From: an uncultured bacterium
GTDB lineage: Bacteria; Bacillota_I; Bacilli_A; RF39; UBA660
Reading direction: 5' to 3'
Length of the DNA: 64,000 nucleotides
Assembly: GCA_905215145.1 (NCBI GenBank)
Contig: CAJMOW010000002.1
Coordinates: forward strand, 1 to 64,000
The notes below the pieces were generated by a model. The model was not told the DNA's origin. It worked only from the letters and a program-made list of their open reading frames with translations, and did not search any database. The position numbers were made by a program, and so were the translations under genes. Below, piece after piece: positions 31,176-60,785 of this stretch (its first letter is position 1; each line of letters begins with the position of its first letter).

Positions 31176-31204
31176 TTGACAAACCTTCTTTTTTATGATA
31201 TAAT
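31176..31204 (+). promoter_or_regulatory. promoter nested in SD-masking hairpin (plus strand, 1)
   Basis: TTGACA (31176-31181), 17 bases, TATAAT (31199-31204) with TGA before it. Bases 31179-31196 pair with 31216-31233, 18 of 18 positions if two G-U pairs are allowed. The right arm contains AAAGGAGG of the gene at 31237. The start site, near 31211, lies between the arms, so only read-through RNA can form the hairpin. Confidence 0.85.
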
Positions 31205-31236
31205 ATATTATAATTATAAGAAAGGAGGTTTGTAGA

Positions 31237-31578
31237 ATGGCAAAACGTATATCTATTTCTTTGTTTACTTTATTAAGTATTTTTTGTATAGTATATTATA
31301 CAAGTAAGTTTTACTTTGAAGGAGAACTATTTTTTGATAACAAAATGATATTAGTATGGACTATTATAGTTGTGTTAATTATTTCATCTTTGATTGTCGG
31401 ATTGTTTTCAGTGTGGAAAGTATATAAGTTAGACAAAGAAAACTTAGAACTAAAAGAATTAGTGTTACAATTAAATGAACACTCAGAAAATCATTATGAT
31501 TCACTTTGTAATTACTTGCTAAATAGTAGAGAATTAAGTTTAGATATTTTCGACAAAGTGCAAGGGAGAGAGCAATGA
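31237..31578 (+). CDS. two-TM membrane protein
   Basis: 113 aa. Two hydrophobic segments (about 7-22 and 37-60) and a charged helical tail that continues inside the cell. No family recognised. It has its own promoter and the strongest SD-masking hairpin here, so it is probably a separately controlled accessory (moron) gene, perhaps expressed in the prophage state. Confidence 0.6.
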   Translation: MAKRISISLFTLLSIFCIVYYTSKFYFEGELFFDNKMILVWTIIVVLIISSLIVGLFSVWKVYKLDKENLELKELVLQLNEHSENHYDSLCNYLLNSRELSLDIFDKVQGREQ

Positions 31579-31892
31579 TGAATCAAAAGTGGTATGACAG
31601 AAACAATTTTAGTGACAATATCGAGTACACAGAAAAAGTGTTAAATAAATTTAATATCGAAAAATATCATTTTGCTTATGACAACGGTGAACTTGCTTTA
31701 TTGATTGAAAGGGGTCTTAAAAAATATAAAGTTGTTATTAGTCAAAATAAATGTGTTGTAGAAATTTATAGGTGTGAAGTACATTTGAACTATGGTAAAT
31801 ACACAAAAGAAAATATGGTATTGAAAAAATCGTTTCAAGACGATTGTATATGGAATAGTATTAAATGGATTGCAAAAGATTCTAAGTTGTAA
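31575..31892 (+). CDS. hypothetical protein coupled to membrane protein
   Basis: 105 aa, start overlapping the previous stop. Mixed alpha/beta, basic, two cysteines, no motif. Co-transcribed with 31237; the two may act together. Confidence 0.55.
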   Translation: MMNQKWYDRNNFSDNIEYTEKVLNKFNIEKYHFAYDNGELALLIERGLKKYKVVISQNKCVVEIYRCEVHLNYGKYTKENMVLKKSFQDDCIWNSIKWIAKDSKL

Positions 31893-31902
31893 TCGTACAT
31901 AG
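31868..31902 (+). repeat. hairpin-GTACATA element 5
   Basis: GATTGCAA (31868-31875) pairs with TTGTAATC (31887-31894, one G-U), followed at once by GTACATAG (31895-31902). The hairpin overlaps the end of the gene before it. A promoter, not an SD, comes next. Confidence 0.6.
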
Positions 31903-31913
31903 AACATTTCCTC

Positions 31914-31942
31914 TTGACAAATCCTCCTTTAAGTGGTATAAT
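31914..31942 (+). promoter_or_regulatory. promoter nested in SD-masking hairpin (plus strand, 2)
   Basis: TTGACA (31914-31919), 17 bases, TATAAT (31937-31942) after TGG. ATCCTCC in the spacer (arm 31921-31933) pairs with GGAGGAT (arm 31953-31965) with one mismatch and one G-U further in. The SD of the gene at 31972 is in the right arm. Confidence 0.8.
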
Positions 31943-31971
31943 ATACTTATCATTTAATGGAGGATAAATAT

Positions 31972-32409
31972 ATGATTAAAGAGATTATTACTGATTGTTT
32001 ATTGTTTAGTTTATGGGAAAGTATTTATTTTTATTTGTTTGCTAGAAGTTATAGTAATATTAGATTAAAATTTTATCAAATATTTGTAATGATTATAGTA
32101 AATTCAATAATAGTAATTATATTCCCACCTACTATAAAACAAATAATTGCAATTATTTTTATGAGTTTATATTATTTTGCTTTTAGTGATGTAAATTTAT
32201 CTAATTGTTTTAAAGCTGTTATTGTCGGATATATGGTTTTATTTATAATTGAAGTTTTATATAGTATATTTCTTGAATATATATTTAATATAAAATCATT
32301 AGTTTTAGACTTAAATATAAATAAACAATTTATAATATTTTTATATTTAATACCAATTAGAATAATTGAATATATTATAGCATTGAAAGGTAAAAGAAGT
32401 GTAAAATAA
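31972..32409 (+). CDS. polytopic membrane protein
   Basis: 145 aa from ATG 31972, eight bases after GGAGG; an ATG at 31957 lies within the SD region and is unlikely. Four to five hydrophobic segments spread over the whole length. It could be a sensor-like or exclusion protein; the neighbour is AgrB-like, so a link to peptide signalling is possible but not shown. Confidence 0.55.
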   Translation: MIKEIITDCLLFSLWESIYFYLFARSYSNIRLKFYQIFVMIIVNSIIVIIFPPTIKQIIAIIFMSLYYFAFSDVNLSNCFKAVIVGYMVLFIIEVLYSIFLEYIFNIKSLVLDLNINKQFIIFLYLIPIRIIEYIIALKGKRSVK

Positions 32410-32444
32410 TGAAGCTAGGTATTGGTGGCGTAGTTCGTAAGTAA
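32409..32444 (+). CDS. tiny coupled ORF, possible signal peptide precursor
   Basis: Eleven codons (MKLGIGGVVRK) starting on the stop of the membrane-protein gene (TAATG). It lies between a membrane protein and an AgrB-like gene, where a pro-peptide might be expected, but it is much shorter than known AgrD peptides (about 45 aa). Could be chance. Confidence 0.25.
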   Translation: MKLGIGGVVRK

Positions 32445-32468
32445 TTATAACTACAACAAAAGGTCTTG

Positions 32469-32498
32469 TCGGCTCTTCCTAAGAACCGAAGTACATAG
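32469..32498 (+). repeat. hairpin-GTACATA element 6
   Basis: TCGGCTCTT (32469-32477) pairs with AAGAACCGA (32481-32489) with one mismatch, then A and GTACATAG (32491-32498), then AAAAGGAG of the AgrB-like gene. Confidence 0.6.
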
Positions 32499-32513
32499 AA
32501 AAGGAGTGTTGAT

Positions 32514-33041
32514 ATGTTAGACAAACTACAATTATTCTTGAAGTCTAAAATTGGTCAACCTTGGGCTTATTATATAACTTGTGTTGTCTATCTTATATTA
32601 ACATTCGGTGGACTAATGGGCATAGGTTATATATTTGGTGTTTGGTGGCAAATGCTTGTATTAGGAATTTGTTTGAGTTGCGTTCGCAGTTATACAATGG
32701 GATTTCATTGCCACACAAACGGTAAGTGTTTTATTATTAGTTCAATAATCGGAATAATGTTCTCTATTATCTAAAAGACTGCTCCTATATGGGTAGTCTT
32801 TTTATTGTGCTTATATTCATGTGTAGATATTTATAAGAAAGCACCGATAGAATTAAATGCAGAACACGAAGGAAAAGATGAGGACTGGCATTTCAAAAGG
32901 GTTGTATTGATTATGACTATTTATATGGCTATTTCTCTTATAACATATTATTTTGGATTAGAGCAATTATGTAAATGTGTATTATTAAGTCTTGTAATGA
33001 CAGACTTATTACTATTTAAGAATCATAAAGAATATATATAG
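32514..33041 (+). pseudogene. agrB: AgrB-like membrane protease broken by in-frame TAA
   Basis: Codons 1-86 (32514-32774) end in TAA, but the same frame continues through codon 175 to 33041 with fitting sequence. Part one has hydrophobic helices and the active-site region RSYTMGFHCHTNGKC, where AgrB has its catalytic His and Cys. Part two has the basic loop (IYKKAPIELNAEHEGK) and two more helices. AgrB usually is about 190 aa and processes peptide pheromones. A terminator hairpin begins at the stop. It is either a broken gene, two separate half-proteins, or a recoded one. Confidence 0.65.
32773..32803 (+). terminator. terminator hairpin inside the agrB-like frame
   Basis: AAAAGACTGCTC (32773-32784) pairs with GGGTAGTCTTTT (32791-32802) over 12 positions including two G-U, with a CTATAT loop and a run of Ts. 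It starts on the in-frame TAA, so it would end transcription exactly after the first half of the gene. Confidence 0.7.
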
Positions 33042-33054
33042 AGGGGATAGATAT

Positions 33055-33507
33055 ATGGAAGACAATCAAGAATTACACGACCTTAAAGCCAAGGTTAATA
33101 AAATAGAATATACGGAAATTAAAGAATTAAAAGATGAAATTCAACAAGTAAAAATTGACCTTAATACAAACAATATTTTAACAAAGCAATGTATTGAAAG
33201 TAATGATAAAATGTCAAATACATTAGACACATTAAAGGACACAATGATTGAAGTGGCTCAAAGTGTTAAGGATAGTAATAGAGTAACATCAGAATTGGCT
33301 TCAACAGTAAAAGACTTGAATGATAAAGTAAAGAATGTTGAAAGCACAATGGACAAGAAATTTGATGAAGTAAATGAACGAATGGAAGTTATTGATGATA
33401 AAGGTAAATTTGATTGGATGCTATTCTTAAAGCATAATGCAGTTGGTATTTTGCTTGGAATAGGTGCTTTAATCTATGCTTTGTCACAACTTGGAATAAA
33501 CCTATAA
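33055..33507 (+). CDS. coiled-coil protein with C-terminal TM segment
   Basis: 150 aa: a heptad-rich coiled coil over residues 5-120, then a hydrophobic helix (about 128-145). The layout resembles XhlA/hemolysin-type phage proteins that sit near holins. It may support lysis or bind the membrane. SD GAGGGG before ATG. Confidence 0.6.
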   Translation: MEDNQELHDLKAKVNKIEYTEIKELKDEIQQVKIDLNTNNILTKQCIESNDKMSNTLDTLKDTMIEVAQSVKDSNRVTSELASTVKDLNDKVKNVESTMDKKFDEVNERMEVIDDKGKFDWMLFLKHNAVGILLGIGALIYALSQLGINL

Positions 33508-33519
33508 TGGAGGTAATAT

Positions 33520-33699
33520 ATGGTAACAATAGCAAGGATTGGCGGTCAAGTTGAACAAGCAACCGCAGAATTATATGGTCTATCTACTGATAACAAGCCT
33601 ATTAGTGATGATATTCCTAACGCTTCTACATTTTATGAGATGGACACAAAGGTGGCGTTTTTATATGACGCAGAAAATAAGCAATGGTTAGAACAATAG
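33520..33699 (+). CDS. small virion-like protein (59 aa)
   Basis: ATG 33520 after GGAGG. Sequence MVTIARIGGQVEQATAELYG... ends in YDAENKQWLEQ, the pattern of short phage proteins located with fibre or baseplate genes. Ten bases before the next gene. Role unknown. Confidence 0.6.
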   Translation: MVTIARIGGQVEQATAELYGLSTDNKPISDDIPNASTFYEMDTKVAFLYDAENKQWLEQ

Positions 33700-33708
33700 G
33701 AGGGTAAT

Positions 33709-34581
33709 ATGGACATAATTGATATTGTACTCTCAAAGAAATATACAGATGAATCATTAAAAGGTATTACTGGTGCTTTAGCTGGTAAGAATTGCACTAT
33801 TAAATCGGCTACTAAAGTAGATGATGTTACAACTGTTGTATTCGCATGGACAGCGGACGATGGAACAGAAAAGACAACAACTATTCAAGTTAATGATGGT
33901 GCTAAAGGTGACATTGGAGATAAAGGTGAAGTTGGTGTTGGTATTGACAATGTGACAATCAATGCAAATAGCCATTTAATCGTAACCTTAACTGATGGTT
34001 CAAGTATTGACGCTGGTTTAATTCAAGGTGGTAGTGGAACTGATGACTATGAAGATTTAATCAATAGACCTAAGATTGAAGGCACTGAACTTATCGGTAA
34101 CATGACCTTTGAAAACTTAGGTGTCGCAAGTGCTACTGATTTAGCACAAACAGACGGACATTTACAAGATTTGGCAGACTTAGTAGGTGACAAGACTAAT
34201 CTACCTATGCCAAATGAAACAGTGATTGATAACATTGAATATGTTGATACAAAGGTAGACGGTCTAATTGATGATAATGCAACTGGACTGGCTAAGACAT
34301 TTTCAAGCGACAAGATTGCAAAGACGTTTGCCACACTTGAAGAAGTAAACGAACGTATACCTCAATATGAAATCATGTCTACCGCAACAGAATCTTGTGG
34401 TGGTCAAGTGGTTCAATTTATTGGAACAAGTACGAGTGACTATACACATGGATATTTTTATGAATGTGTTCAAAATGATGGAACATACAAATGGACAAAT
34501 ATAAAAATTCAAGAAAGTATTATTACACAAGAGCAATATCAAAGCATATTAGATAGATTAAATGCTTTGGAAAATAAATAA
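33709..34581 (+). CDS. fibre/baseplate protein with collagen-like repeat
   Basis: 290 aa. N-terminal helical cap (IDIVLSKKYTDESLKG), beta domain, then Gly-x-x units (GAKGDIGDKGEVGVG, about 64-78) and repeated beta and helical parts with a coiled-coil end (QYQSILDRLNALENK). Such proteins form trimeric fibres or upper baseplate parts. Confidence 0.65.
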   Translation: MDIIDIVLSKKYTDESLKGITGALAGKNCTIKSATKVDDVTTVVFAWTADDGTEKTTTIQVNDGAKGDIGDKGEVGVGIDNVTINANSHLIVTLTDGSSIDAGLIQGGSGTDDYEDLINRPKIEGTELIGNMTFENLGVASATDLAQTDGHLQDLADLVGDKTNLPMPNETVIDNIEYVDTKVDGLIDDNATGLAKTFSSDKIAKTFATLEEVNERIPQYEIMSTATESCGGQVVQFIGTSTSDYTHGYFYECVQNDGTYKWTNIKIQESIITQEQYQSILDRLNALENK

Positions 34582-34606
34582 TAAACAGAAGGGAGGCTCA
34601 TAGAAG

Positions 34607-34780
34607 TTGACGATAGATGATTATTTGTCTGAAATCAGCAAACGGTCGAATAGATTTGGTTCACAATTAAACAAACTTATGGATTTTTGTGGAGTAAATT
34701 GTTTAGTGGACGTTACTTATGATATGGCAAAAATGTTTTACGAAAAGATGGTCAGAGAAAATATAGATGATAGTATTTAA
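34607..34780 (+). CDS. small hypothetical protein (57 aa)
   Basis: TTG start at 34607, ten bases after GGGAGG. Helical, basic N-terminal half, acidic end. A strong terminator follows. No family recognised. Confidence 0.5.
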   Translation: MTIDDYLSEISKRSNRFGSQLNKLMDFCGVNCLVDVTYDMAKMFYEKMVRENIDDSI

Positions 34781-34803
34781 TGTTAGCTTCTATGAAGCTG
34801 ATT

Positions 34804-34834
34804 ATGGAGAGGTGGAAACATCTCTCCATTTTTT
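34804..34834 (+). terminator. strong intrinsic terminator
   Basis: An 11-bp stem (34804-34814 with 34819-34829, one G-U) closed by a GAAA tetraloop and followed by TTTTTT. It ends the accessory/fibre stretch. A hairpin-GTACATA element comes seven bases later. Confidence 0.9.
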
Positions 34835-34840
34835 AATTTA

Positions 34841-34868
34841 GGATGGGTAAGACACCCATCCGTACATA
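34841..34868 (+). repeat. hairpin-GTACATA element 7
   Basis: Perfect eight-base stem GGATGGGT/ACCCATCC (34841-34861), directly followed by GTACATA (34862-34868) and GAAAGGGA before ATG 34883. It lies right after a strong terminator, so transcription of the tail genes must restart or be rescued near here. Confidence 0.75.
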
Positions 34869-34882
34869 GAAAGGGAAAGAAT

Positions 34883-35260
34883 ATGAAAAAATATTTAACA
34901 TCTAATGAACTTATGGAAGTAGTAAATGAATTAACAAAGGTAGAGAACGGAGAATTAGTTCATAAGACTGCTGTTGAAAGATATATATTAAAGGTAGGTA
35001 TGGTTGCACAAATTGTCCTTGACGATATGGATAAGTTTAAGGATTGCAGTGAAATCTATGATTATGTAGTAGAGAATGATATTGACTTTGAGATGGAAGT
35101 AAATAACTATTACATGATTGATGTTTTAGTAAAAGAAGAATTAAGTACAACTAATGTGATTAGAGATTTTGTAAAGTCTATGGAAGTTTCTATGAAAGAC
35201 TTGCCTAACACATTAAATCTTGAACAAACATTAACAAAGTTTAGAGATGAACTAAAATGA
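34883..35260 (+). CDS. putative tail assembly protein
   Basis: 125 aa, helical and acidic. It lies upstream of a tail-completion-like gene and the tape measure, where tail chaperones often lie, and overlaps the next gene by four bases. I see no slippery-site frameshift partner. Role by position only. Confidence 0.45.
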   Translation: MKKYLTSNELMEVVNELTKVENGELVHKTAVERYILKVGMVAQIVLDDMDKFKDCSEIYDYVVENDIDFEMEVNNYYMIDVLVKEELSTTNVIRDFVKSMEVSMKDLPNTLNLEQTLTKFRDELK

Positions 35261-35721
35261 TAATTACAACATATACACAACTTGAAAATATATTAAATGG
35301 AAAATGTCAAGAAGCATTGGATAGAACGACAGACAGGTTATTAGACAAATTAGGAGAGTTCATTCAAAAGGATGTGTATGAATCATACTCTCCTACATTT
35401 TATGATAGAACATTTGATTTCAAGAACTCTTGGGAAAAGACTTCTGCTAAACTTAAAGGTAAAATAGTTGAAGCTGAAATATTTCAAAATATCAACACTT
35501 TGGCATTTAATTCCGACAAATTTCAACATGGTAGTAATGTATGGGTCGAAGCATGGAATGATAATGAAAATGAATTAGCACATATTATAAATGATGGTGC
35601 AATAGGTGAAGCATTTGGTTTTCCACAATTAGGAGCAAGACCATTTTGGAATGATTTCATACAATACTGTGAAAGGGAATTTGAGAATATATTTCAAGAA
35701 GAGTTGAAAAAGATAATATAA
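35257..35721 (+). CDS. HK97 gp10-like tail completion protein
   Basis: 154 aa. The layout (N-terminal helix, DLYESYSPTFYDRT-like turn, FQHGSNVW, ARPFWNDFIQYC at the end) matches the HK97 gp10-type family: conserved ending ARPF near the C terminus. Members complete the tail tube or connector. Coupled with the preceding gene. Confidence 0.65.
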   Translation: MIITTYTQLENILNGKCQEALDRTTDRLLDKLGEFIQKDVYESYSPTFYDRTFDFKNSWEKTSAKLKGKIVEAEIFQNINTLAFNSDKFQHGSNVWVEAWNDNENELAHIINDGAIGEAFGFPQLGARPFWNDFIQYCEREFENIFQEELKKII

Positions 35722-35732
35722 GGAGAAAACAT

Positions 35733-36287
35733 ATGGTAACTTGTGGAATAGATGCATCAAGTTCTATGACAGGAATAGGAATATTTGATGATTTGAATTT
35801 GGTGTATTATAATAAAATACCACCTATATCAAAGGATGGAACATGGGAAGACCATGTGTTTGAAATAATAGAACAAATCACTCCCATATTAGAAGAATAT
35901 AAAGTCGAAGAAATCTATATGGAAGACGTACCTGAATTTGTAAGATATGGGAGTAAAGGAAAAGCTATTGTTAAGCCACTTATTATACTAGGTGGAGTTC
36001 ACATGGCTTTTTATTTAAAGTTAGTTAAAGAATTACATTATAATATAAAGTATGACGATGTAGATGAATGGCGTAAAGATATGGGATTTTTGTTAGGAAA
36101 AGAAAGGTCAAGAGAAGACCAAAAACAAAAGGCTGTTGATTTCGTCAATGAAACATTTGGATTGAATTTACATTTTGTCAAAGGGTCTAAAAGTAAAAAA
36201 CAAGATGATGATATTGCAGAAGCTATTTGTATAGTGTGGAAGAATATTAGACCTAAAGAAGATAAGAAACAATTTGGTCGGAGGTGA
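35733..36287 (+). CDS. RuvC-like Holliday junction resolvase
   Basis: 184 aa with the RNase H-fold order: GIDASSSMTGIGIFD (Asp 7), IYMEDVPEF (Glu in strand 4), and a final acidic cluster in KKQDDDIAEAICI. These are the active-site positions of RuvC/poxvirus resolvase-like enzymes. It probably resolves branched DNA before packaging. Location beside the tape measure is unusual; replication genes are on the other strand. Confidence 0.75.
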   Translation: MVTCGIDASSSMTGIGIFDDLNLVYYNKIPPISKDGTWEDHVFEIIEQITPILEEYKVEEIYMEDVPEFVRYGSKGKAIVKPLIILGGVHMAFYLKLVKELHYNIKYDDVDEWRKDMGFLLGKERSREDQKQKAVDFVNETFGLNLHFVKGSKSKKQDDDIAEAICIVWKNIRPKEDKKQFGRR

Positions 36288-36291
36288 TTAG

Positions 36292-39200
36292 ATGGCGAAT
36301 AATTTAAGTGCTAATGATTTTCAATTAGGAGTACAAGTTGTACCGAAAACCGACCAATTAAACAATGAGTTTAAAAAGATTAGTCAAACTGCTACATTAA
36401 ATGTCAATGTAAAAATCAATGACCAATCTTTCAAGAAAGTAAATAAAGTAGTAGAAACTTATAGTAATAATCTGGGTAAAACATATCAACAGACAACGAT
36501 ACTAAACCAAGCGAATGAAGTGCTATATAGTTCCACTACAAAGTTGAATGAAAAATTCAAGCCATTTAACAAAGAAGTAAAGCAATCAAGTCAAAATCTT
36601 AGTGAGACGGCTAAAACAGCAAAACAAGCAAGTGGTTCTATTACAAATCTTGGAGAAGCAACTTCTAAAGCAGAAACACAAGCAAAATCATTAGGTCAAT
36701 CATTTGGTGATATTGTAACAAAGGTTGGTAAGTTTTATCTTGCTACAAAGCCTATTCAAATGATGCAACAAGCATTTGATGATGCTATTGAAACAGTTAA
36801 AGAATTTGATGATGTTGTCACTGAATTTAAAAAAGTGTCTGATTTAAGCGGAGAGTCATTAGATGATTATACGCAAAAATTAGGAGAACTTGGTCAAACT
36901 GTGGCTCGGACTAGATCAGAAATGGTTTCTAGTAGTACAGAATTTGTAAAAAGTGGATATTCAGAAGAAGATGCGGCTCAATTAGCAAGAATAGCCGAAT
37001 TATATCGTAACATTGCAGACGAAGCTATTAGTAGTGGGGATAGTGCCAATTTTATAATTTCCCAGATGAAAGCATTTTCTAATGATACAGAAACATTTGC
37101 TTTACATACTATCAATGCTATTAACAACGTATCGAATAATATGGCGGTAAGTTCTAGTGATATTAGCACTGCTTTAAGCAAAACCTCTAGTGCTATGGGA
37201 GCATTAGGAAATACATATGAACAAACCATTGCTTTAGTAACAAGTGGCACTGAGATTATGCAAGGGCAAGCTAGTAAAGTCGCACGAGGTTTGAGAACCA
37301 TAGGTAATAATATTGCTAATGCGGCTCAAGGCGCAGATACATTAGAAATTTCTGTTCAAGGCGTTACAAAGCAAATTAGTTTATTAGACTCAACAACTGG
37401 GGATATGCGTAGTACATTTGATATTATGCAAGATATTTTTACAAGTGGTTGGGAAGATATGACCAATTCTGAGAAGCAAGCATTAGCGATTAGTTTAGCT
37501 GGAAAGAATCAGTTCGAGGTTTTCGTTAGTGTACTCGAAAATTTTGCTGACGCGCAAAAAGCAGTAGCTTTAGCCACTGATTCTGCTAATTCTGCGGAGC
37601 AAGAGAATACGGCTTACCTTGATTCTCTTAGTGCCAAATTAAATCAATTAAAAGCATTATTACAAGAACTTGTTCTAGGCAAAGGTGGACTTCAAGATTT
37701 TGCTAAGAACTTACTTGATGTTGGAATTGCTATATTAAAGTTTGCCAATAGCGATATTGGTCAAGCTATAATTAAGATAGCTTCATTAACTGCTGGAATT
37801 GCACTACTTAATAAAACTTGGACTTCCTTACAAACAATATCCGAAACAAATATTTTAGCAAGTGCAATTACTTCTTTAATAGCCGGAGAAACAACATTAG
37901 GTCAAGTTACTGGTGTATTAACAACTAAATTTTTAGCAAATGCGGCGGCTTGGGCGGCTACTCCATTTGGTATGATTACAATAGCTGTAGGTGCTATAGT
38001 AGCTATAAAAGCGGCATATGACCATTTTAATGTAACGCTTGAAGAACACGTAGAGAAACTTAAAGAGTTAAAATCTGATTATGAAGAAGCTCAAACTAAG
38101 GCTGATGGACTAGAAAAACAACTTGAAAACGTAAGAGACAGAATTGAGGAAATCAATAGTAAAGACAACCTAGAACTTACTGATGAAACTCAATTAAGAA
38201 TGTTGCAAGAAGAAGAAGCTAGTCTTGAGAATCAATTATTAGTACAAAAAGAATTAGCTAGAATAGCCAAAGAAAAAGCAACAGACGAAGCCAAACAGAC
38301 TTTACAAAAAGAAACAGTTGATGCAGGGGCATTTGGTTCAACTCAAGTTACTGTTGCTTCTGGGTATACAGGAGATACCGTTCGTGAATTAGCTAATAAA
38401 GGAACTGTCGTAGAAGCATTAGACAGTTATATAAAGCAATTAAATGAAACTCAAGATGAAATAAATTCTTTGTTGATAAAAAGAGAAGAACTAGAGGAAT
38501 CAAACCAAAAAGAGTCAGAAGAGTATAAGCAAATCAATTCAGATATTGATGCGCTTAGAACTAAAAAAGAAGAATTACGAGAAACGACAGCTAGCTATGC
38601 AGAAACAATTTCATTAGCAACTCAAGGAGTTAATGAAGAAGATGAAGTAATTCAAGATGCAATTACTTCGCTTACTTCTTACACTGAAACACTTAAAAGA
38701 CTTGATGGAGAAGAACAAGATGTAAAAACTACTACAGATGAAACAACTGAAAGTACAAAATCATATGACGAAGCTACTTCTGAAATTATAGATAGTATTG
38801 AAAAATTAGTGTCTTCTCTTGGACTTACAAATTCGCAATTAGAACGATATAGCTCTTTAATGGGTGATATTGAACTTGAAAATTTTCTACAGAATTTACA
38901 AGATATAAGAGATGCTTCTAATGATGCTAGTACGGGTATTGATAATCTTCAATCCGCTTTAGAAACTGCCGTTGAAGCCCAAGCCGAATACGAATCGAAT
39001 GGTAAATTAACCATTGACACTTTCCAATCCCTTATGGGTGTTAGTGCCGATTATTTAACAGCATTAGAAAACGAAAATGGTCAGATTGAAATAAATCAAA
39101 CGACTCTTGGAAATTTGGTTGAGACTATGAAAGCCGCAAAGATTGAAGAATTACAGCAAGCGGCGGCGGCTGATATTTTAGCATATTCTCAAGGCAATAT

Positions 39201-40788: not shown

Positions 40789-40791
40789 TTT

Positions 40792-40821: not shown

Positions 40822-40837
40822 AAGGAGGCATATTTTA

Positions 40838-41248: not shown

Positions 41249-41270
41249 ATAATTTATAAAGGAGAATAAT

Positions 41271-51235: not shown

Positions 51236-51239
51236 AATA

Positions 51240-51668: not shown

Positions 51669-51692
51669 AACTATCTCCTTTACTATGAACAT

Positions 51693-52257: not shown

Positions 52258-52281
52258 GAAATCACCTCCTTTATGATATAT

Positions 52282-52310
52282 ATTATAACATATAAGGAGG
52301 TGAATGTCAA
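52282..52310 (-). promoter_or_regulatory. promoter nested in SD-masking hairpin (minus strand, 1)
   Basis: TTGACA (52305-52310), 17 bases, TATAAT (52282-52287) after TGT. TCACCTCCTT (minus strand, 52294-52303) pairs perfectly with AAGGAGGTGA (52262-52271), the SD of the gene starting at 52257. The start site (about 52275) lies between the arms. Confidence 0.85.
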
Positions 52311-53077: not shown

Positions 53078-53117
53078 AAATATCTCCTTATTTATAAATA
53101 AAAATCTCTTATTTTTA

Positions 53118-53146
53118 ATTATACCACAAATAAGAGATTTTGTCAA
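53118..53146 (-). promoter_or_regulatory. promoter enclosed by 14-bp inverted repeat (HNH gene)
   Basis: TTGACA (53141-53146), 17 bases, TATAAT (53118-53123) after TGG. 53128-53141 is a perfect inverted repeat of 53101-53114. Here the right arm ends before the SD, but the SD region (AAATAAGGAGAT) is a near copy of the arm, so the left arm could pair with either. Confidence 0.8.
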
Positions 53147-53147
53147 G

Positions 53148-53642: not shown

Positions 53643-53667
53643 AAAAACATCTCCTTTCATAGTATAT

Positions 53668-53696
53668 ATTATACCATAAAAAGAGATGTTTGTCAA
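53668..53696 (-). promoter_or_regulatory. promoter nested in SD-masking hairpin (minus strand, 2; nrdG)
   Basis: TTGACA (53691-53696), 17 bases, TATAAT (53668-53673) after TGG. The spacer arm pairs with AAAGGAGATGTTT (53645-53657) over 13 positions with one G-U, extendable to 16 with another. Since nrdD lies directly upstream, read-through from it would carry a masked nrdG ribosome site. Confidence 0.85.
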
Positions 53697-53701
53697 TGAT
53701 T

Positions 53702-55870
53702 TTATTTAATTTCGTGATTATCTAAATGAACAAATCTGTGAGCTATTTCATCGGTTCTTCCATCATTCCAAAAATTACTTCCAATATAACCACAAGTTCG
53801 CCTTGCCACATTCATCTTGCTATGGTCACGATTTTTACAATTAGGACATTCCCAAATTAATTCTCCATTTTCATCAATAATTTTAATTTCACCATCATAA
53901 CCGCATACTTGACAATAGTCAGATTTAGTATTGAGTTCAGCATACATAATATTATCATAAATAAATTTTATAATATTAAGCACTGCTTGAACATTATGTG
54001 TCAAATCAGCACATTCAATATATGAAATTGCACCACCCAATGACAATTCTTGAAATTTTGATTCAATGCTTAATTTATCGAATGGATTGATTTCTTCAAA
54101 CACTGGAATATGATAACTATTGGTAATATAGTTTCTATCTTTTCCGTCTAATTGAACAAAAATATCATTACCAAATCTTTCTTTTAGCTTTTTAGCAAAT
54201 TTATAAGTAGTGGATTCAATAGGAGAACCATATAATGAATATCCTAAGTTATCTTGTTTCTTCCATTGCTCACACTTGTTGTTTAAATATTGCATAATTT
54301 TAATTCCAAAAGAATGACCCTTGTCATTGTTTGAATGTGATTGTTTTGTCATATATTTAACACATTCATATAAACCAGCATAACCTAAAGAAATGCTTGA
54401 ATAACCGCCGAACAATAATTTATCAATAGGCTCATGTTGATTTAATCTTGCTAATGCTCCATCTTGCCATAGAATGGGTGCTACATCACTAGAAGTTCCT
54501 AATAATCTTTTATGTCTTAACATTAAAGCCCTATGGCATAATTCACAACGGTCTTCTAAAATATTCCAAAATTTATCCATATTTCCATCAGAACTAAAAG
54601 CAACATCTGGTAAATTGATAGTTACTACACCTTGATTAAAACGACCATAAAATTTATAGTTCCCTTGTTCATCTTTCCAAGGGGCTAAAAACGAACGACA
54701 TCCCATGTTAGGAAAACAATTACCTTCTTTTAATTCTTTCATTTTCTTTTCAGAAATATAGTCTGGAACAAGCCTTTTAGCTGTACATTGTGCTGATAGT
54801 TTTGTTAAATACCAATAAGGGGAATTTTCGTGAATATTGTCCTCTTCAAGAACATATAATAATTTTGGAAATGCTTGGGTTACATAAGCTCCAACTTTAT
54901 TCTTCATTCCTTGAATACGTTGTTTTAAAAATTCCTCAATAATCATAGCGAGTTCTTGTTTGTATTCTTTTGTTTCTCCTAAATACATAAATACACTTAA
55001 AAAAGGAGCTTGCCCGTTTGTTGTAGACATACTGTTTATCTGATAATTAAATGTTTGTACACCATCTTCAATTTCTTTTGCTAAATCTTCCATTGCATAT
55101 TTTTCTGCTTCTAAGTTGCTATTCCCACGTTTTATGTATTTATTATATGCAATATCATAACTATATTTAACAAATGGTGCAAGATGAGATAAACTAATGG
55201 TACAACCGCCATATTGTGAACTAGCTACTGCCGTAATAATTTGTGTAGCAACGGTACAAGCAGTCAAAAATCTATGTGGTTTATCAATGCGAACTCCGTT
55301 AATGACTGTCCCATTTTGCAACATATCTTCAAGATTGATTAAATCGCAATTATGCAAAGCCTTTTGACCAAAATAATCCATATCGTGAAAATGAATTATT
55401 CCTTCTTCATCAGCTTGTAAAATGTCTGGTGGCATAAGAAACCTTTTTGTAATATCTTTACTCATAATCCCAGCCATATAATCTCTTTGAGTTGTAACAA
55501 GTTTAGCATCTTTATTAGAATTTTCTTTGTTTAAGTATTCATTAGTACCGTCTAATAAATTAATTAAATCTTCATCTGTACTATTCTGAACATATCTTTG
55601 ATATTCTCTTACTTGTCTATAGCCCTCATATGCTTTTGCAGTATTTTTTTGTTTATATTTAATCAATTTATCAAATACCATAGATTCAATAGTATAAATT
55701 TCTACTTCTTCAATTTGTTTTTGTAATAATTCTTGTTCGATTTCTTCTGCAATTCTTAATGCAATTTTTTCTTTAATGCCTTCTCCATATGGCATTGCTT
55801 TCATAATTGCATTAGAAATTTTTTCTTTGTTAAAAGGAACTTCTGTACAATCACGTTTAATTACATTCAT
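53702..55870 (-). CDS. nrdD: anaerobic (class III) ribonucleotide reductase
   Basis: 722 aa. N-terminal ATP-cone (about 1-90), the central barrel with CRSFLAPW, a zinc site near the end (CQVCG, CPNC) and the glycyl-radical loop TCGYIGSNFW (about 692-701). It reduces ribonucleoside triphosphates to deoxy forms in the absence of oxygen; NrdG activates it. This points to a strictly anaerobic host. Length is near the usual 700. Four bases overlap the next gene downstream in the order of transcription. Confidence 0.95.
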   Translation of the reverse strand: MNVIKRDCTEVPFNKEKISNAIMKAMPYGEGIKEKIALRIAEEIEQELLQKQIEEVEIYTIESMVFDKLIKYKQKNTAKAYEGYRQVREYQRYVQNSTDEDLINLLDGTNEYLNKENSNKDAKLVTTQRDYMAGIMSKDITKRFLMPPDILQADEEGIIHFHDMDYFGQKALHNCDLINLEDMLQNGTVINGVRIDKPHRFLTACTVATQIITAVASSQYGGCTISLSHLAPFVKYSYDIAYNKYIKRGNSNLEAEKYAMEDLAKEIEDGVQTFNYQINSMSTTNGQAPFLSVFMYLGETKEYKQELAMIIEEFLKQRIQGMKNKVGAYVTQAFPKLLYVLEEDNIHENSPYWYLTKLSAQCTAKRLVPDYISEKKMKELKEGNCFPNMGCRSFLAPWKDEQGNYKFYGRFNQGVVTINLPDVAFSSDGNMDKFWNILEDRCELCHRALMLRHKRLLGTSSDVAPILWQDGALARLNQHEPIDKLLFGGYSSISLGYAGLYECVKYMTKQSHSNNDKGHSFGIKIMQYLNNKCEQWKKQDNLGYSLYGSPIESTTYKFAKKLKERFGNDIFVQLDGKDRNYITNSYHIPVFEEINPFDKLSIESKFQELSLGGAISYIECADLTHNVQAVLNIIKFIYDNIMYAELNTKSDYCQVCGYDGEIKIIDENGELIWECPNCKNRDHSKMNVARRTCGYIGSNFWNDGRTDEIAHRFVHLDNHEIK

Positions 55871-56055
55871 CTAATCCAAATCTCCTTACAATCTTCTTCA
55901 TCATTACATTCCATAAATTCCATTTGTAACAATTCTTCATCTATTTTATCATAATCATTTAGTTTATATTCCTTACATCTTATCTGCCCTCCTTCAAACC
56001 ATAATAGAGCAATTTGTTCATATGGTTGCTCTAATAAATATTCCTTTAGCGTCAT
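55867..56055 (-). CDS. small hypothetical protein upstream of nrdD
   Basis: 62 aa, acidic (MEFMECNDEEDCKEIW), overlapping nrdD's start by four bases. SD AGGAGG. Unknown; probably co-translated. Confidence 0.55.
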   Translation of the reverse strand: MTLKEYLLEQPYEQIALLWFEGGQIRCKEYKLNDYDKIDEELLQMEFMECNDEEDCKEIWIR

Positions 56056-56079
56056 TAGTAATTATATCCTCCTTTCTAT

Positions 56080-56262
56080 TTATTTTTGTAGTCGTTTATT
56101 TGAAGTATATGTTTGTACTATTTGATTACACATTTCAGTTGTACAACAAATATTGTTATAATGAGTTCTATTATATTCTGCAATAGCATTACATATTGGA
56201 CAAAAATCTTCACAATAATGTGTAATTTTTTCCTCGTTCTCTGTCAATAAAAAGTCTTCCAT
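56080..56262 (-). CDS. small cysteine-rich protein (60 aa)
   Basis: ATG 56262 after AAGGAG; a TTG at 56286 overlaps the upstream gene and is less likely. Six cysteines (HYCEDFCPICNA, NNICCTTEMC) suggest a zinc or iron site. Unknown. Confidence 0.55.
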   Translation of the reverse strand: MEDFLLTENEEKITHYCEDFCPICNAIAEYNRTHYNNICCTTEMCNQIVQTYTSNKRLQK

Positions 56263-56278
56263 GAAATTATTACTCTCC

Positions 56279-56818
56279 TTAATCAACCATTTTTATTTCC
56301 TTGCCACAATAAGGACAATATTTTAATTTCTCCATATTCTCAGGTATTCTCCAATATGGGTTGTTAATATCATGGTACTTTGGACACATTGTACGATAAT
56401 CATATTTAATCCATACACAAAACTCTTGGTTATCATTGAAATTAGTACAATCTTTTACTTTATGAATAGTATTGTCTTTCTTATATTTTATTTGTTTATC
56501 TATAAGTTGATGTACTAAATAATTTACTTTTTTCCCATGTTCTTTAGCATATTTAATTTCTGACTTTGTACTTTCTCCAATATATCCATCAACATTAACT
56601 ACAAAAATTTCGTCTGCCATATCAATTTTCCTTTTGTGCATATCATCAAGCATTTCTTTTGTGCCTTCTGTCCAAACTTCTTTATCTCCAGAATGTCCAA
56701 ATAGTCCCACACTAATTACAATATTCCCTGCTAATGTAAGTTCTTTTTGAACTCTCATAAATTCATCTTTAAATTTTGTGCTACCGCATAATGTAATTAC
56801 TTTATAATTTTCAATCAT
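56279..56818 (-). CDS. nucleoside 2-deoxyribosyltransferase-like protein with zinc-ribbon end
   Basis: 179 aa. N-terminal ITLCGSTKFKDEF, DEIFVVNVDGYIGESTKSEIKYA is the typical nucleoside 2-deoxyribosyltransferase-like/DUF4406 order (catalytic Glu in the ES/TKSE region). C-terminal CPYCGKEI half-ribbon. Such enzymes swap bases on deoxynucleosides; relatives in phage have unknown substrates. Fits the nucleotide-supply cluster. Confidence 0.72.
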   Translation of the reverse strand: MIENYKVITLCGSTKFKDEFMRVQKELTLAGNIVISVGLFGHSGDKEVWTEGTKEMLDDMHKRKIDMADEIFVVNVDGYIGESTKSEIKYAKEHGKKVNYLVHQLIDKQIKYKKDNTIHKVKDCTNFNDNQEFCVWIKYDYRTMCPKYHDINNPYWRIPENMEKLKYCPYCGKEIKMVD

Positions 56819-56836
56819 TTTCTAATCAATTCCTTT

Positions 56837-57508
56837 CTATTTATAAAATGTATGACCACTTTCATCTGTAAATTGTTTAGTCCAACTATTCCATTCATTA
56901 GGACTACAATCACTTCTAAAAGCAATACAACCATTAGTAGTGTCTTCATAATAAGCATATTCTAATGCTAATATAGTATCTTCTGTAATATTATTCCGAC
57001 CATAAGAAAATTGATTCTTTTCTGTAATAATTTTAATAGGGTCTGTTGGGTATAAGTCATGTTCTACTCTATTTAAAATTACACAAGCAACATTTACCTT
57101 AGAATCAAAATCAGCCTCAAAAGTTTCTGTTTCAATACATTTTTGCATCATTTTAATTTGTTCATCAGTAAAATGATTATAAATTGTGTCTTTTGTTTCG
57201 ATTGATTTATATAAAATAAACCATAATTTTTTATCCATAGGTTTAATTTGGTCAATTAATTCTAGGATATTATTATACCATTTAATTTGTTGATTGTCAA
57301 GTTCTGTTTGTAATTCTTTATTTTTAGATTGCAACAAATTATTTTGATGTTCTAATTCACTACAATATGTCTGTAAGCTCGTATTAGCCGATTCTAGGGC
57401 TTCAATTTGTTCTTGCTTAGACTTTATTGTATAACACATAATCATTAAAATTAGAGCCAATAAAACGATTCCTACACACTGAATAATATTATGCTTCTCT
57501 ATCTTCAT
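56837..57508 (-). CDS. membrane-anchored SleB-type cell-wall hydrolase
   Basis: 223 aa from ATG 57508 (SD AAAGGAG). One N-terminal TM helix (about 11-27), a coiled coil (about 30-75), and a SleB/Hydrolase_2-like domain (ETETFEADFDSKVNVACVIL, NRVEHDLYPTDP, FSYGRNN) with its lead Glu. SleB enzymes cut spore-cortex or cell-wall peptidoglycan. Finding one among early genes, apart from the late endolysin, is unusual. Confidence 0.72.
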   Translation of the reverse strand: MKIEKHNIIQCVGIVLLALILMIMCYTIKSKQEQIEALESANTSLQTYCSELEHQNNLLQSKNKELQTELDNQQIKWYNNILELIDQIKPMDKKLWFILYKSIETKDTIYNHFTDEQIKMMQKCIETETFEADFDSKVNVACVILNRVEHDLYPTDPIKIITEKNQFSYGRNNITEDTILALEYAYYEDTTNGCIAFRSDCSPNEWNSWTKQFTDESGHTFYK

Positions 57509-57524
57509 TTTCTTCTTCTCCTTT

Positions 57525-58331
57525 CTAATCTGTAATTTCAACTTCATAAGCATATAAAGCGTCATAAAGTTTTTGCGGAAACTTAGGATATTTATTTTTA
57601 TAATAGTCAGCTACTTCTTTAATAACTTTTTCTTTGGTTGTTTTATAAGCTTGAAATGCTTCTTCTGGTGTATTAAATGTACCTAAATCAATTCTTTTAT
57701 TATTTTCTAATATATGATTACTTACTCTTGCTCTATAATGTTTTTGCCCTTGTTTGCAATAAGAAACACCGATTGGTAAACTCCCTCTGACAGTTTTGCA
57801 ATTTGTCAATAGACTATTTAATTCTTGAGGTATAATCACACAATTTTTGGGACTATATATTTTATTTCCTTTGTACAAAATATCTTTATCAACCACCATT
57901 GATGAATTACCACATTCCCAATAATTTTTGTTATACCACTTTGCAAAATTTTGAAAATTGCACCATTCTTCACAAATTTCGCACCCTATATATGTAGGCT
58001 TTTCTTTGTGATAGTTTTCGTTATAACACCTTGTGAATATACCTCCCCATGCGACATATTCTTTAGTATTATTGTTTCTATTTTTTGACGGGACAAATTT
58101 AGTTGGTTTATATTCTCCCTCTCCTAAGTACCCTCTCCCAAAGATTGTCCTTGCATAAGGGCTAAAACATCTTCCATTTTTAAAAGCATCATGTGTTGTT
58201 TTCGTTTTGTAATTACTTTCATTAAAAATTATATAAATATGTTCATAGTCTTTGTAATCATAAATTGTAAACTTTTCTCCAAATTTATTAATATTTGATT
58301 GCCCTATCATATCTTCTTTTAATATTTTCAT
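57525..58331 (-). CDS. AP2-domain homing-type endonuclease/DNA-binding protein
   Basis: 268 aa. A cysteine-bearing region with CEICEEWCNF, then KNCVIIPQELNSLL as in HNH-AP2 proteins, and an AP2-like DNA-binding domain (GVSYCKQGQKHYRARVS, LGTFNTPEEAFQAY). Typical of mobile AP2/HNH endonucleases in phages. The HNH residues are not all clear, so it might only bind DNA. One base separates it from the helicase. Confidence 0.75.
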   Translation of the reverse strand: MKILKEDMIGQSNINKFGEKFTIYDYKDYEHIYIIFNESNYKTKTTHDAFKNGRCFSPYARTIFGRGYLGEGEYKPTKFVPSKNRNNNTKEYVAWGGIFTRCYNENYHKEKPTYIGCEICEEWCNFQNFAKWYNKNYWECGNSSMVVDKDILYKGNKIYSPKNCVIIPQELNSLLTNCKTVRGSLPIGVSYCKQGQKHYRARVSNHILENNKRIDLGTFNTPEEAFQAYKTTKEKVIKEVADYYKNKYPKFPQKLYDALYAYEVEITD

Positions 58332-58332
58332 T

Positions 58333-60564
58333 TTACAGTAATTCCTTTAACCATGTGTTCCTTTGTTCATCTTCATCTACCAATAAAGCATTGTTAAAAG
58401 CTGAAACGCTTCCAATATCAACAACTTTTTTCTTCGCTCTTGTGTCAGCAACATAAAGTAAATTCTTTGATAACATTTTTGTATGTTTTTCACTAACTAT
58501 ATTTATAACATAGTCACTCTCGCTTCCTTGAGACTTGTGAATCGTAATACAATAAGCCAATAATAAATTTTGTAATTTAGGTTTATCGAAAACGATAAGT
58601 TCATTATCAAATTCAATAACCATCATATTGTTATTTACTTCTCTAATGACACCGCACTGTCCATTAAATACTTGTGTTAATTCTACATCATCACTTGTCA
58701 GCATATTATCTGAATTTTGTATTTCTTTATAACTCTCTAATGGCATTGCCTTATAGTCATTTTTTGTATTGATTACTACATCTCCAACCCTAAAAATTAT
58801 GTTAGTTTTGTTGATTTGCCTTGTCATAATTTTCTCATTCGGTTTTGGCGAATTTATAATTGCTTGTATTTCATTATTGATAATATAAGTTCCTTCTTCT
58901 CCAACATTCATAGGAGACAAACATAATATATTCTTTGGCTTAATATTTTTATCAATAAGTTTAATATATTCTTCTTTTACAGTATTTAATATATCGTTAG
59001 TCTCAATAAATTCATAATTGTCACAAATCTTATATCTGTTACCTATATGTTTCACCATTTCAGCATCATCAAAAAACTGTTTTCCTTGACGTACATTTGT
59101 CGCAACAAATAAACTGCCATTGCTTTTATATCTAAAAATTTCGTCCAGTGTAATGCTTGGAACTTTACCACTGTTAATCAAATCACTAAATACTCTTCCT
59201 ACACCTACGCAACTTAATTGTTTAAAATCTCCAACAAATACAATTCTTGCATTTTCATTAGTGATATGTTTAAATAACATTACGATTGTTGGTAAGTCAT
59301 TCATTGTAGCCTCGTCTAAAATAACACAATCAGAAAAAATTTCTCCGTCTTTCAAACATTTTCTATGTACTGTACTTGTTGGTCTATGCGTTGCTTCTGC
59401 CATTCTAAGGCTTGCTTTTCCAGTAGAAGATAACAAAGTGTATGATAAATCATTATTTTCCATAAGTTTGATAAGACCCTTCAACGAACTCGTTTTTCCA
59501 CTTCCAGAGAACCCAGCCAAAATCATAAAATTATATTTACAAAATAATTCTAATGCTTTTGATTGCTTTTCACTTAGTTGAAATCCATCAATATTAGTGT
59601 ATTTTGTATAATCAATGTCAAGTTGCTTACTATTCATAATTTTATCCTTTACAAAATCAGCAACATAACATTCACCTTGGTAAGTTGACATAATACTTAA
59701 ATCTTTTGATTCTTCATCGTAATAGAATAAATCATTATTCATTGCGGTAGGAACAATTAAAGGTTCAAGCTCTGGCACACTATATTCTTCCATAATATAG
59801 TAATACAAATCATTGCCATTGAGTCTTGTATCACCCTCTTGTTCATTTCTTTCCAACACACTTAAAATCAAATAAGCACATCTCATTTCGCTTACTTTTA
59901 AGTCTTTTCTTAATTCCATAATCGTTCTATCAGCAAATTCAAAAGAACGACCAAGTGTTGAGATTAAAACTTTATAAGGATTAGATTGAATTTCTTTAGT
60001 AATATGCTCTTCATCAAGATATTCTTCAATTAACTTCTTGCAATCACTTACATCAAATTTGTAATCCTTGAAATGTTGAATAATACCAAGATACTTATAT
60101 TTTTCAAGTAAGTTTCTTGCATAAGCACCAAGATAGACTTCTCCGACACCTTTTATTCTACTTACATCAATAATATCTTTGCCTTGAGTTAAAATCAATT
60201 CAATGAAATCAGGATATGCTTCTAAAATATTATCAGCAATTCTTTCACTTGTAGTGCAATCCATAAGAATTTCTTTCTTTTGGTCTAAAGTAAGAGTTGA
60301 CACATCAAAGTTGCTCATAGATGGAACTGATAAAATCTTATATGTTCCACCATATCTTTTGTCATAGGCAATTTCTTCAATCTCAATTTCGTAGTCTTTA
60401 TTTTCATCTATATATGAATCGTTGCCCTTCGTTGAAAAGGTAAAATAAAGGCTTAATTTGACACTATCATTATGGTCAATAGGACTCCATGAAAATATTC
60501 TATAATCATCTTTCTTAAAACAACACTTTACACATCTTGCTTTTAATGTTATACTTTTACTCAT
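58333..60564 (-). CDS. RecD/Dda-like SF1 DNA helicase
   Basis: 743 aa. N-terminal OB-like and HhH-like part (about 1-300, with RIKGVGEVYLG), then the helicase core: Walker A LAGFSGSGKTSS (about 336), DEATMND (II), FVGDFKQLS (III), and AYCITIHKSQGSE (VI). It matches the RecD2 family, 5'-3' helicases. Probably part of the phage replisome with DnaE. The upstream gene overlaps its start by eight bases. Confidence 0.88.
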   Translation of the reverse strand: MSKSITLKARCVKCCFKKDDYRIFSWSPIDHNDSVKLSLYFTFSTKGNDSYIDENKDYEIEIEEIAYDKRYGGTYKILSVPSMSNFDVSTLTLDQKKEILMDCTTSERIADNILEAYPDFIELILTQGKDIIDVSRIKGVGEVYLGAYARNLLEKYKYLGIIQHFKDYKFDVSDCKKLIEEYLDEEHITKEIQSNPYKVLISTLGRSFEFADRTIMELRKDLKVSEMRCAYLILSVLERNEQEGDTRLNGNDLYYYIMEEYSVPELEPLIVPTAMNNDLFYYDEESKDLSIMSTYQGECYVADFVKDKIMNSKQLDIDYTKYTNIDGFQLSEKQSKALELFCKYNFMILAGFSGSGKTSSLKGLIKLMENNDLSYTLLSSTGKASLRMAEATHRPTSTVHRKCLKDGEIFSDCVILDEATMNDLPTIVMLFKHITNENARIVFVGDFKQLSCVGVGRVFSDLINSGKVPSITLDEIFRYKSNGSLFVATNVRQGKQFFDDAEMVKHIGNRYKICDNYEFIETNDILNTVKEEYIKLIDKNIKPKNILCLSPMNVGEEGTYIINNEIQAIINSPKPNEKIMTRQINKTNIIFRVGDVVINTKNDYKAMPLESYKEIQNSDNMLTSDDVELTQVFNGQCGVIREVNNNMMVIEFDNELIVFDKPKLQNLLLAYCITIHKSQGSESDYVINIVSEKHTKMLSKNLLYVADTRAKKKVVDIGSVSAFNNALLVDEDEQRNTWLKELL

Positions 60565-60727
60565 TTTTATTCTCCTTAAATTCTATATATCCATTTTTTA
60601 ATAACCATTGACTATCTTCAACAAACTTTATGTATTCCTTATAGTTGTCTAAAGTAACATTATGTTCTTTACAAAATTTATTTATAAATTTAATCCTTTT
60701 ATTTGCATTTTCAATTTCTTTTAACAT
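60557..60727 (-). CDS. small hypothetical protein (56 aa)
   Basis: ATG 60727 with SD AAAGGAG in the hairpin arm; its stop overlaps the helicase start. Basic helical sequence. Its translation probably opens the helicase ribosome site, so the masking hairpin at 60731-60780 would control both genes. Confidence 0.6.
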   Translation of the reverse strand: MLKEIENANKRIKFINKFCKEHNVTLDNYKEYIKFVEDSQWLLKNGYIEFKENKNE

Positions 60728-60756
60728 AAAAAATATCTCCTTTCATTGATATAGTA

Positions 60757-60785
60757 ATTATACCATAAAAGGAGATATTTGTCAA
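60757..60785 (-). promoter_or_regulatory. promoter nested in SD-masking hairpin (minus strand, 3; helicase operon)
   Basis: TTGACA (60780-60785), 17 bases, TATAAT (60757-60762) after TGG. The arm at 60768-60780 pairs perfectly over 13 bases with 60731-60743 (AAAGGAGATATTT on the minus strand, the SD), and extends by three more pairs including one G-U. The start site is at about 60750. Confidence 0.9.

Follow-up and report, generated by a model that had tools for sequence, protein, structure and literature searches.

The window analysed here, i.e., a 64 kb stretch of DNA (positions 1 to 64,000 of contig CAJMOW010000002.1) with a G+C content of 30%, encodes phage proteins, including (among 10 proteins searched) a portal, a terminase-like protein, a tape measure, NrdD/NrdG, a RecD-like (exonuclease V) helicase and a DNA polymerase. 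We describe an element that recurs in the window and in related phages: a sigma-A-type promoter set inside an inverted repeat, whose left (5') arm lies in the spacer between the -35 and -10 boxes, often including the -10 itself, and whose right (3') arm often contains the Shine-Dalgarno sequence (SD) of the next gene. Promoters in the window have the form TTGACA-17-TATAAT, mostly with TG preceding the -10, and ribosome sites are of the AAGGAG type; the host of the window phage is therefore probably a Firmicute, and the phage group carrying the element appears to infect Gram-positive (Firmicutes-like) hosts. A near match to positions 30000-50000 was absent among 50,697 phage records, a search of the window against Rfam at the gathering threshold gave zero matches, and the window DNA polymerase as a lone query retrieved zero related virus loci, while alignments A1 and A2 did retrieve some.

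We found 12 exact TTGACA-N17-TATAAT promoters in the window, seven of which carry a hairpin of 15-27 predicted pairs. Five of these had been proposed by a first-pass annotation made from the letters alone, which described inverted repeats with arms that differ from gene to gene and yet always pair. All five are exact matches to the promoter pattern, and folding from the -35 to the start confirmed the hairpins with longer stems than were listed, giving minimum free energies (MFE) of -20.5 to -25.2 kcal/mol and z-scores of -4.1 to -8.7 (200 dinucleotide shuffles each); a single shuffle folded as well as the native sequence for 31914+ (promoters are named by position and strand), and none did for the other four. 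On the plus strand, the promoter at 31176-31204 lies in a hairpin (31179-31233; MFE -24.9, z -7.8) with the SD AAAGGAGG of a 113-aa gene (31237-31578, no Pfam match) in its right arm, and the promoter at 31914-31942 lies in a hairpin (31921-31965; MFE -20.5, z -4.1) whose right arm holds the SD GGAGG of an open reading frame (ORF) listed at 31957-32409 (no Pfam match), for which the start fitting this SD is the ATG at 31972. On the minus strand, the -35 of the promoter at 52282-52310 shares bases with the TGA that ends the upstream HNH gene, and the right arm of its hairpin (52262-52303; MFE -21.1, z -5.0) contains the SD AAAGGAGG of a 125-aa gene (51880-52257). Directly 3' of the NrdD stop codon, the promoter at 53668-53696 sits in a 22-bp hairpin with a 3-nt loop (53645-53691; MFE -25.2, z -8.7) and a right arm containing the SD AAAGGAG of nrdG (53148-53642). 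Finally, the promoter at 60757-60785, located 10 nt past an upstream stop codon, sits in a hairpin (60731-60780; MFE -23.2, z -6.1) whose right arm includes the SD AAAGGAG of a 56-aa frame (60557-60727) that stands ahead of the RecD-like gene (58333-60564).

The two remaining hairpin promoters, both exact matches that the first-pass annotation had missed, are exceptions to the coincidence of right arm and SD predicted in five of the seven folds: they have perfect arms of 14-15 bp, with the right arm upstream of the SD. One of them (53118-53146, minus strand) lies directly 3' of the NrdG stop codon, and its hairpin (53101-53141) has an outer stem of 14 bp without mismatch and a U-rich stretch after it (MFE of the stretch -15.3, z -3.1); the SD AAGGAG lies further 3', and the downstream gene encodes an HNH/NUMOD1 endonuclease (52307-53077). 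The other (61583-61611, minus strand) lies directly 3' of the DNA polymerase stop codon, with a hairpin of 17 predicted pairs around a perfect 14-15 bp core (61567-61606; MFE -21.1, z -5.5) and the SD AGGAGG after it. The gene downstream of this promoter (60990-61550, minus strand) encodes a Mom-like protein (PF25680), which may mean that the phage DNA is modified.

A TG precedes the -10 in all seven hairpin promoters. In the five hairpins noted first, the -10 falls within the inner stem or the loop, the loops are only 3-9 nt long, and the start site predicted from the position of the -10 (6-7 nt past it) is within the loop or at the very beginning of the right arm, i.e., downstream of the 5' arm. 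RNA started at the promoter would thus be missing the left arm. The first-pass placement of the start between the two arms is corrected to this extent, there being no long gap between them.

To quantify the element, we counted a promoter as hairpin-bearing when the duplex energy of the spacer side against the leader was at most -12 kcal/mol and z was below -3 relative to shuffled spacers. The thresholds were set on the window and the first relatives (G001-G006), and the leader side was fixed at 48 nt in the main scoring (in an earlier scoring it ran to the start codon). As G001-G006 were fetched after pairing had been seen in them and the window is the finding itself, their counts (13/111 and 7/17, respectively) are selected by outcome. 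The fair rate is given by eight held-out records (G030-G037), which were picked by RecD-like identity before scoring from the top of a list of 39 loci (two others, L287 and L293, lie in G001 and G003 and were left out, and the remaining 29 were not included). Here 26 of 146 promoters carried the hairpin (G030 5/21, G031 2/8, G032 2/22, G033 0/15, G034 0/10, G035 8/25, G036 6/28, G037 3/17). Two GenBank scaffolds scored early, MT835469 (0/4) and MT836683 (0 promoters), stand outside the main count, and the other loci retrieved with alignment A1 were scanned only in the pieces obtained.

Across all 15 records, including the window, 46 of 274 promoters passed, compared with 234 of 20,000 random positions in the same DNA (16.8% vs 1.2%). 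Pairs of decoy hexamers passed in one case out of 69 (0/15 and 1/54), and a comparison of the held-out promoters with the first decoy alone (0/7) gave p=0.60; because decoy hexamers were too rare for a strong test, we relied on the random-position and shuffle controls. With a strand-symmetric score of at least 24, 45 of the 274 promoters qualified against none of 274 shuffled spacers. The stems at the 46 promoters are near-perfect and comprise about 14-27 pairs. Pairing was also specific to each site: among 18 promoters of the first records, own arms paired with a mean of -19.9 kcal/mol and swapped arms with -10.5 (permutation p ~1e-5), and a promoter's own partner was the best of all in 13 of the 18 cases.

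The elements mostly occupy tight junctions between genes. A co-directional open frame upstream ended within -30 to +25 of the -35 at 39 of 45 hairpin promoters, as opposed to 49 of the 104 remaining promoters that have an SD (Fisher p=4e-6); one of the 46 hairpin promoters had no upstream frame in reach, and the frames counted as upstream genes were uncurated open frames of at least 40 or at least 60 codons (TTGACA itself contains TGA). At all seven hairpin promoters of the window the upstream stop lies at -21 to +4, and at 52310- the stop codon forms part of TTGACA. Read-through from the upstream gene would be hard to avoid at such junctions.

The right arm covers the SD in 30 of the 46 hairpins, leaves the SD core outside in 12 and could not be classified in four, where the pattern used gave no SD. 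For the 30 SD-covering hairpins, the predicted probability that the SD is unpaired was 0.04 in read-through RNA and 0.62 in promoter-started RNA, of which the low former value is partly built in by the selection of these sites and the openness of promoter-started RNA is not; at 108 other promoters the corresponding values were 0.54 and 0.67. An SD shut in read-through RNA and open in promoter-started RNA, as first proposed, is thus predicted for this class. Given that 12 of the 46 hairpins leave the SD core outside the right arm, however, SD masking is not the whole story.

U-rich tracts point to a second route, i.e., they suggest that transcription may terminate after many of the stems. At least 5 T were found in the 8 nt past the SD in 22 of the 30 SD-covering hairpins (compared with 9 of 110 other promoters), and in the 8 nt past the last G-C pair in 9 of the 16 remaining hairpins (compared with 6.3% of leader windows); at least 3 T in the 5 nt beyond the last paired base were found in 31 of all 46 (compared with 16.6%). 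Since these tracts follow the stem and a stop codon lies directly 5', many of the hairpins also resemble intrinsic terminators. A separate observation concerns promoter 2479- of L245 in G006, where a terminator-like hairpin with a long U-tract starts one base past the -10; the start site would thus fall within its 5' arm. As this promoter does not pass the main criterion, it lies outside the counts.

We conclude from these predictions that the common denominator of the element is a hairpin available to read-through RNA alone, which would act by masking, termination or both, and we consider it likely that this hairpin insulates the downstream gene: by masking the SD, probably by termination, or by both. 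Each element would be a compact gene-to-gene insulator of about 50 nt, in which a sigma-A promoter sits inside an inverted repeat, mostly right past the stop codon of the preceding gene. A polymerase arriving from upstream would copy both arms, and the RNA would fold into an extended stem-loop. The SD of the next gene makes up the 3' arm in about two thirds of cases and would thereby be masked; in many cases a U-rich tract follows, and the hairpin might then also end transcription coming from upstream, so that the mRNA of the upstream gene would have its 3' end there. RNA from the nested promoter, whose start would fall in the loop or just inside the 3' arm, would lack the 5' arm, form no hairpin and be translated, and the next gene would obey its own promoter alone. 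Computation has established the arms and how they pair in different phages and orthologs, the wobbles typical of RNA, where the elements lie, the predicted accessibility of the SD and the U-rich tracts; start sites, folding in vivo, masking, termination and benefit to the phage are what we infer in this scheme. We regard it as evenly balanced whether the element goes further and is a composite part, in which the terminator of the upstream gene and the promoter and SD of the downstream gene are written on top of one another within about 50 nt, the 5' arm precedes the start, read-through RNA alone is both terminated and masked, and rows of co-directional genes become independently driven, insulated units.

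A simpler explanation is that the hairpins are plain intrinsic terminators of the upstream genes, squeezed onto the promoter and SD of the next gene by genome compaction, with masking as a by-product. Intrinsic (Rho-independent) terminators have a stem, a small loop and often a U-rich tail, and lie right past a stop codon; the tight junctions (39/45), the U-rich tracts in both classes of hairpin and the 12 hairpins that leave the SD uncovered would all be expected of them. Nevertheless, the right arm coincides with the SD in 30 of 46 cases, and several tails are U-poor (those at 31176+ and 31914+). With a stricter definition of the stem end, a run of 8 nt with 5 or more T follows at just 6 of 18 hairpins. 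At several sites the pairing also runs through the G that matches the C of TTGACA, which aids the stem more than a U-tract. Consensus terminator scans of positions 23000-36000 and 48500-64000 likewise flagged one alone of the seven window hairpins as terminator-like, namely that of 53696- (53645-53691). The elements further differ from ordinary intrinsic terminators in that a promoter spacer serves as the 5' arm and often the SD as the 3' arm, and termination would hit read-through RNA alone. We therefore judge plain terminators to be unlikely.

Much less probable still is that the duplex serves as an RNase III processing site at which polycistronic RNA is cut between genes. Near-perfect stems of about 14-27 pairs are of a length within the reach of RNase III, but cleavage would leave both the coincidence of right arm with SD and the U-rich tracts unexplained; such processing would in any case be compatible with, and downstream of, insulation by a read-through-only hairpin.

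The stems also carry information on which molecule folds. In the five noted stems, symmetric scoring of mismatches gave 10 G.U, 0 A.C and 3 T.T, consistent with the first-pass suggestion that mismatches are mainly G-U and that the RNA is what must fold. As energy-based selection favours G.U pairs, we repeated this test with the strand-symmetric selection, and in the stems of the 45 promoters obtained we counted 52 G.U, 10 A.C and 14 other mismatches (G.U vs A.C, p=5.7e-8). Part of this bias could stem from G's that are invariant in the SD and the TG motif, and outside the SD core and TG/-10 the counts were 25 G.U and 10 A.C (p=0.017). Because a DNA palindrome read by a protein predicts no excess of G.U over A.C, the bias indicates RNA pairing, pointing to RNA rather than DNA as the folding molecule. 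This bears directly on the view that repressors or other DNA-binding proteins use the palindromes as operators. Inverted repeats bracketing the -10 are typical places for operators, and L078 in a wider virus sample repeats one arm sequence at two promoters. On the other hand, the arms differ between promoters and pair worse when swapped, so that they reveal no common site, the SD makes up the right arm at many promoters, and the excess of 52 G.U over 10 A.C is not predicted for such a palindrome; we accordingly think operators slightly less probable even than processing sites.

Orthologous genes in different phages keep the hairpin while its letters change, an outcome in favour of the first-pass annotation, which had named paired arms of differing sequence in related phages as the decisive test. 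RecD-like orthologs in G001, G006, G030, G031, G035 and G036 have hairpins with differing arms (own -21.4, swapped -10.3), as do members of a 150-aa family (G004, G031, G036), the DNA polymerase family (G002, G005) and a 361-aa family (G001, G032). In a 146-aa family the hairpin is found in the related phages G035 and G036, with CCTCC/GGAGG in one replaced by CCCCC/GGGGG in the other, and the SD variants GGCGG and GGTGG of other phages are matched by CGCC and CCACC in the spacer. In these cases the left arm tracks the SD variant and is more than a general anti-SD. Within six gene groups, pairwise counts gave 164 differing spacer positions that are paired in both members and 29 that are not, a count that rests on predicted folds of promoters already selected for pairing and in which one group (G035 8603 with G036 9894) was assigned by eye. 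The RecD-like and polymerase families contain both SD-covering hairpins and hairpins that end before the SD; as the 3' arm may be either the SD or the sequence before it, and orthologs switch between the two, selection seems to have kept insulation and not one fixed structure. As a further observation, G036 (L339) departs from its relative G035 in that GGAG or GGAGG is replaced as SD by GGGG or GGGGG at three of its six hairpin promoters, where the spacer carries CCCC. Near-perfect palindromes can arise by template switching, but functionless by-products of mutation are the least credible of the explanations considered, being largely contradicted already by orthologs that keep the hairpin with different arms and not expected to cluster at promoters (16.8% vs 1.2%) and past stop codons.

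The element is a property of this phage group. We rejected the hairpin as a general trait of viral promoters, as mean pairing in a wider virus sample (217 distinct promoter-plus-SD sites from at least 122 IMG/VR loci) was -5.95, compared with -5.54 for swapped arms. Strong lone cases were nevertheless seen in other virus contigs (L002 and L118), in which the upstream stop again lies within the -35. A search for CTCCTT at one fixed place in the spacer together with AAGGAG gave 2 matches in viruses, where the reversed control TTCCTC gave 0, and 17 matches in bacterial genomes (the reversed control was run on viruses only); long stems were present in 8 of these 17 (four in Megasphaera, four in Ruminococcus) and absent in 9. 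In Megasphaera, a 20-bp hairpin lies between genes that we call aldehyde-dehydrogenase-like and DnaQ-like from a reading of their translations, without a family search. Five of six DnaQ-like loci in Megasphaera and relatives have the hairpin (L281-L285, of which L281 is the L251 site), and the more distant L286 (47% identity) has none within the stretch viewed; in two of the five, A-to-G changes in the left arm turn A-U into G-U pairs. The Ruminococcus cases (L247, L255, L257 and L262, on contigs of four species) share the promoter element TACTCCTTTGGGAGTATAAT with a distal complementary arm, and one genome holds a second, similar copy.

Several results weigh against insulation by a read-through-only hairpin, or limit its reach. 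The design was first thought to be phage-wide, and while two hairpins could be added to the original five, 5 of the 12 exact window promoters lack such pairing (33+, 7473+, 24137+, 51721- and 57300-). Two of the 15 records have no hairpin promoter at all (G033 0/15, G034 0/10), and five distant cultured relatives reached a combined 4/147 (WRP3 0/50, PMBT24 0/20, FADO 1/43, phiCDIF1296T 2/16, CB473P3 1/18), so that no ready laboratory phage was found; TR-TP1, Geobacillus E3 and Perkons, with 1, 0 and 0 perfect promoters, were kept outside this count. In the wider virus sample there was no significant excess of pairing at -12 kcal/mol (10 observed vs 6.6 expected, p=0.11) or at -14 kcal/mol (4 vs 2.2, p=0.17), and at -10 kcal/mol 26 sites were observed vs 16.5 expected (no p value was computed); since an anti-SD pattern had served to choose L001 and L002 among the 122 loci, any true excess is smaller still. 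With regard to masking, the predicted accessibility of the SD at the 12 hairpins that do not cover it is unchanged (0.59 in read-through and 0.58 in promoter-started RNA), and the drop in read-through RNA at the 108 other promoters, though small, is also significant. With regard to termination, the count of 6 in 18 under the stricter stem end speaks against it, and some of the T's in these tracts can pair with the A-rich stretch flanking the -35. Finally, since the upstream promoters are of the sigma-A type like the downstream ones, early/late timing offers no evident reason for insulation.

Two other observations were made in the window. Promoter 51721- (51660-51721), whose spacer contains the end of a 57-aa frame, has no read-through hairpin, but RNA started there can fold into a stem of 11 bp that includes the start codon and leaves the SD in its loop, at a z of only -1.3. 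On the plus strand, a perfect promoter is followed by about 860 nt without a long ORF (7500-8366), which fold better than 20 dinucleotide shuffles (z -3.7) and possibly represent a large structured non-coding RNA; compared with Rfam, this stretch matched no family at the gathering threshold, and its top weak match was a Bacillus-plasmid RNA (E 0.36).

The first-pass annotation held that such a design had been described for single cases alone, which overstates its novelty: ribosome-binding site (RBS)-sequestering hairpins are present at several T4 genes (e, soc, 49, I-TevI/II/III and segB) and at Aeh1 mobE (PMC3014915, PMC2988022), and in the Gram-positive B. subtilis a hairpin of at least 20 bp is proposed to block translation of spoIIG read-through RNA at sigG and cannot form in RNA from the sigG promoter (PMC5942855). 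As in T4, the SD here is predicted to be shut in read-through RNA, RNA from the nested promoter would lack the 5' arm, and several genes per phage are concerned; homing endonucleases are among the T4 targets, and here an HNH gene follows 53146-. Unlike in T4, where late (or middle) promoters of the phage's own programme delay genes, the promoters here match the sigma-A consensus and provide the 5' arm with their own -35/-10 spacer, most hairpins lie directly past stop codons and many are terminator-like, and the genes behind them include nrdG as well as, in relatives, those for DNA polymerase and RecD-like proteins. Similarly, sigG is one cellular gene with a sporulation promoter, whereas the element here recurs at many sigma-A promoters. 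In Tn10/IS10, incoming transcription yields a transposase RNA with a masked start region, which differs in that a single sequence protects one transposase from outside transcription. Cluster K mycobacteriophages carry phage-wide inverted repeats beside SD-like sequences at gene starts, the SAS/ESAS, some of which lie over an upstream stop codon as here, and which have a shared consensus (PMC3203893). By contrast, the arms described here are unrelated (swapped arms pair much worse), the spacers differ and the promoter lies inside the repeat. Within the open-access literature (most subscription journals lie outside it), we found neither a phage group described as nesting sigma-A promoters in such junction hairpins nor an SD described as the 3' arm of a read-through-only terminator. 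Judged by these sources, the masking logic is already known (T4 e, soc and I-TevI; sigG), and what is new is its repeated use at sigma-A promoters, in partly terminator-like form.

If insulation by read-through-only hairpins is true, read-through masking, known from single phage genes and sigG, would be a recurrent layout of a whole phage group that uses ordinary sigma-A promoters. The element would also be a compact natural template for synthetic biology, combining promoter, insulator and ribosome site within some 50 nt. Moreover, a spacer that must both serve the promoter and pair with the SD, and that is rewritten in orthologs with its pairing kept, would make the evolution of overlapping functions readable and testable.

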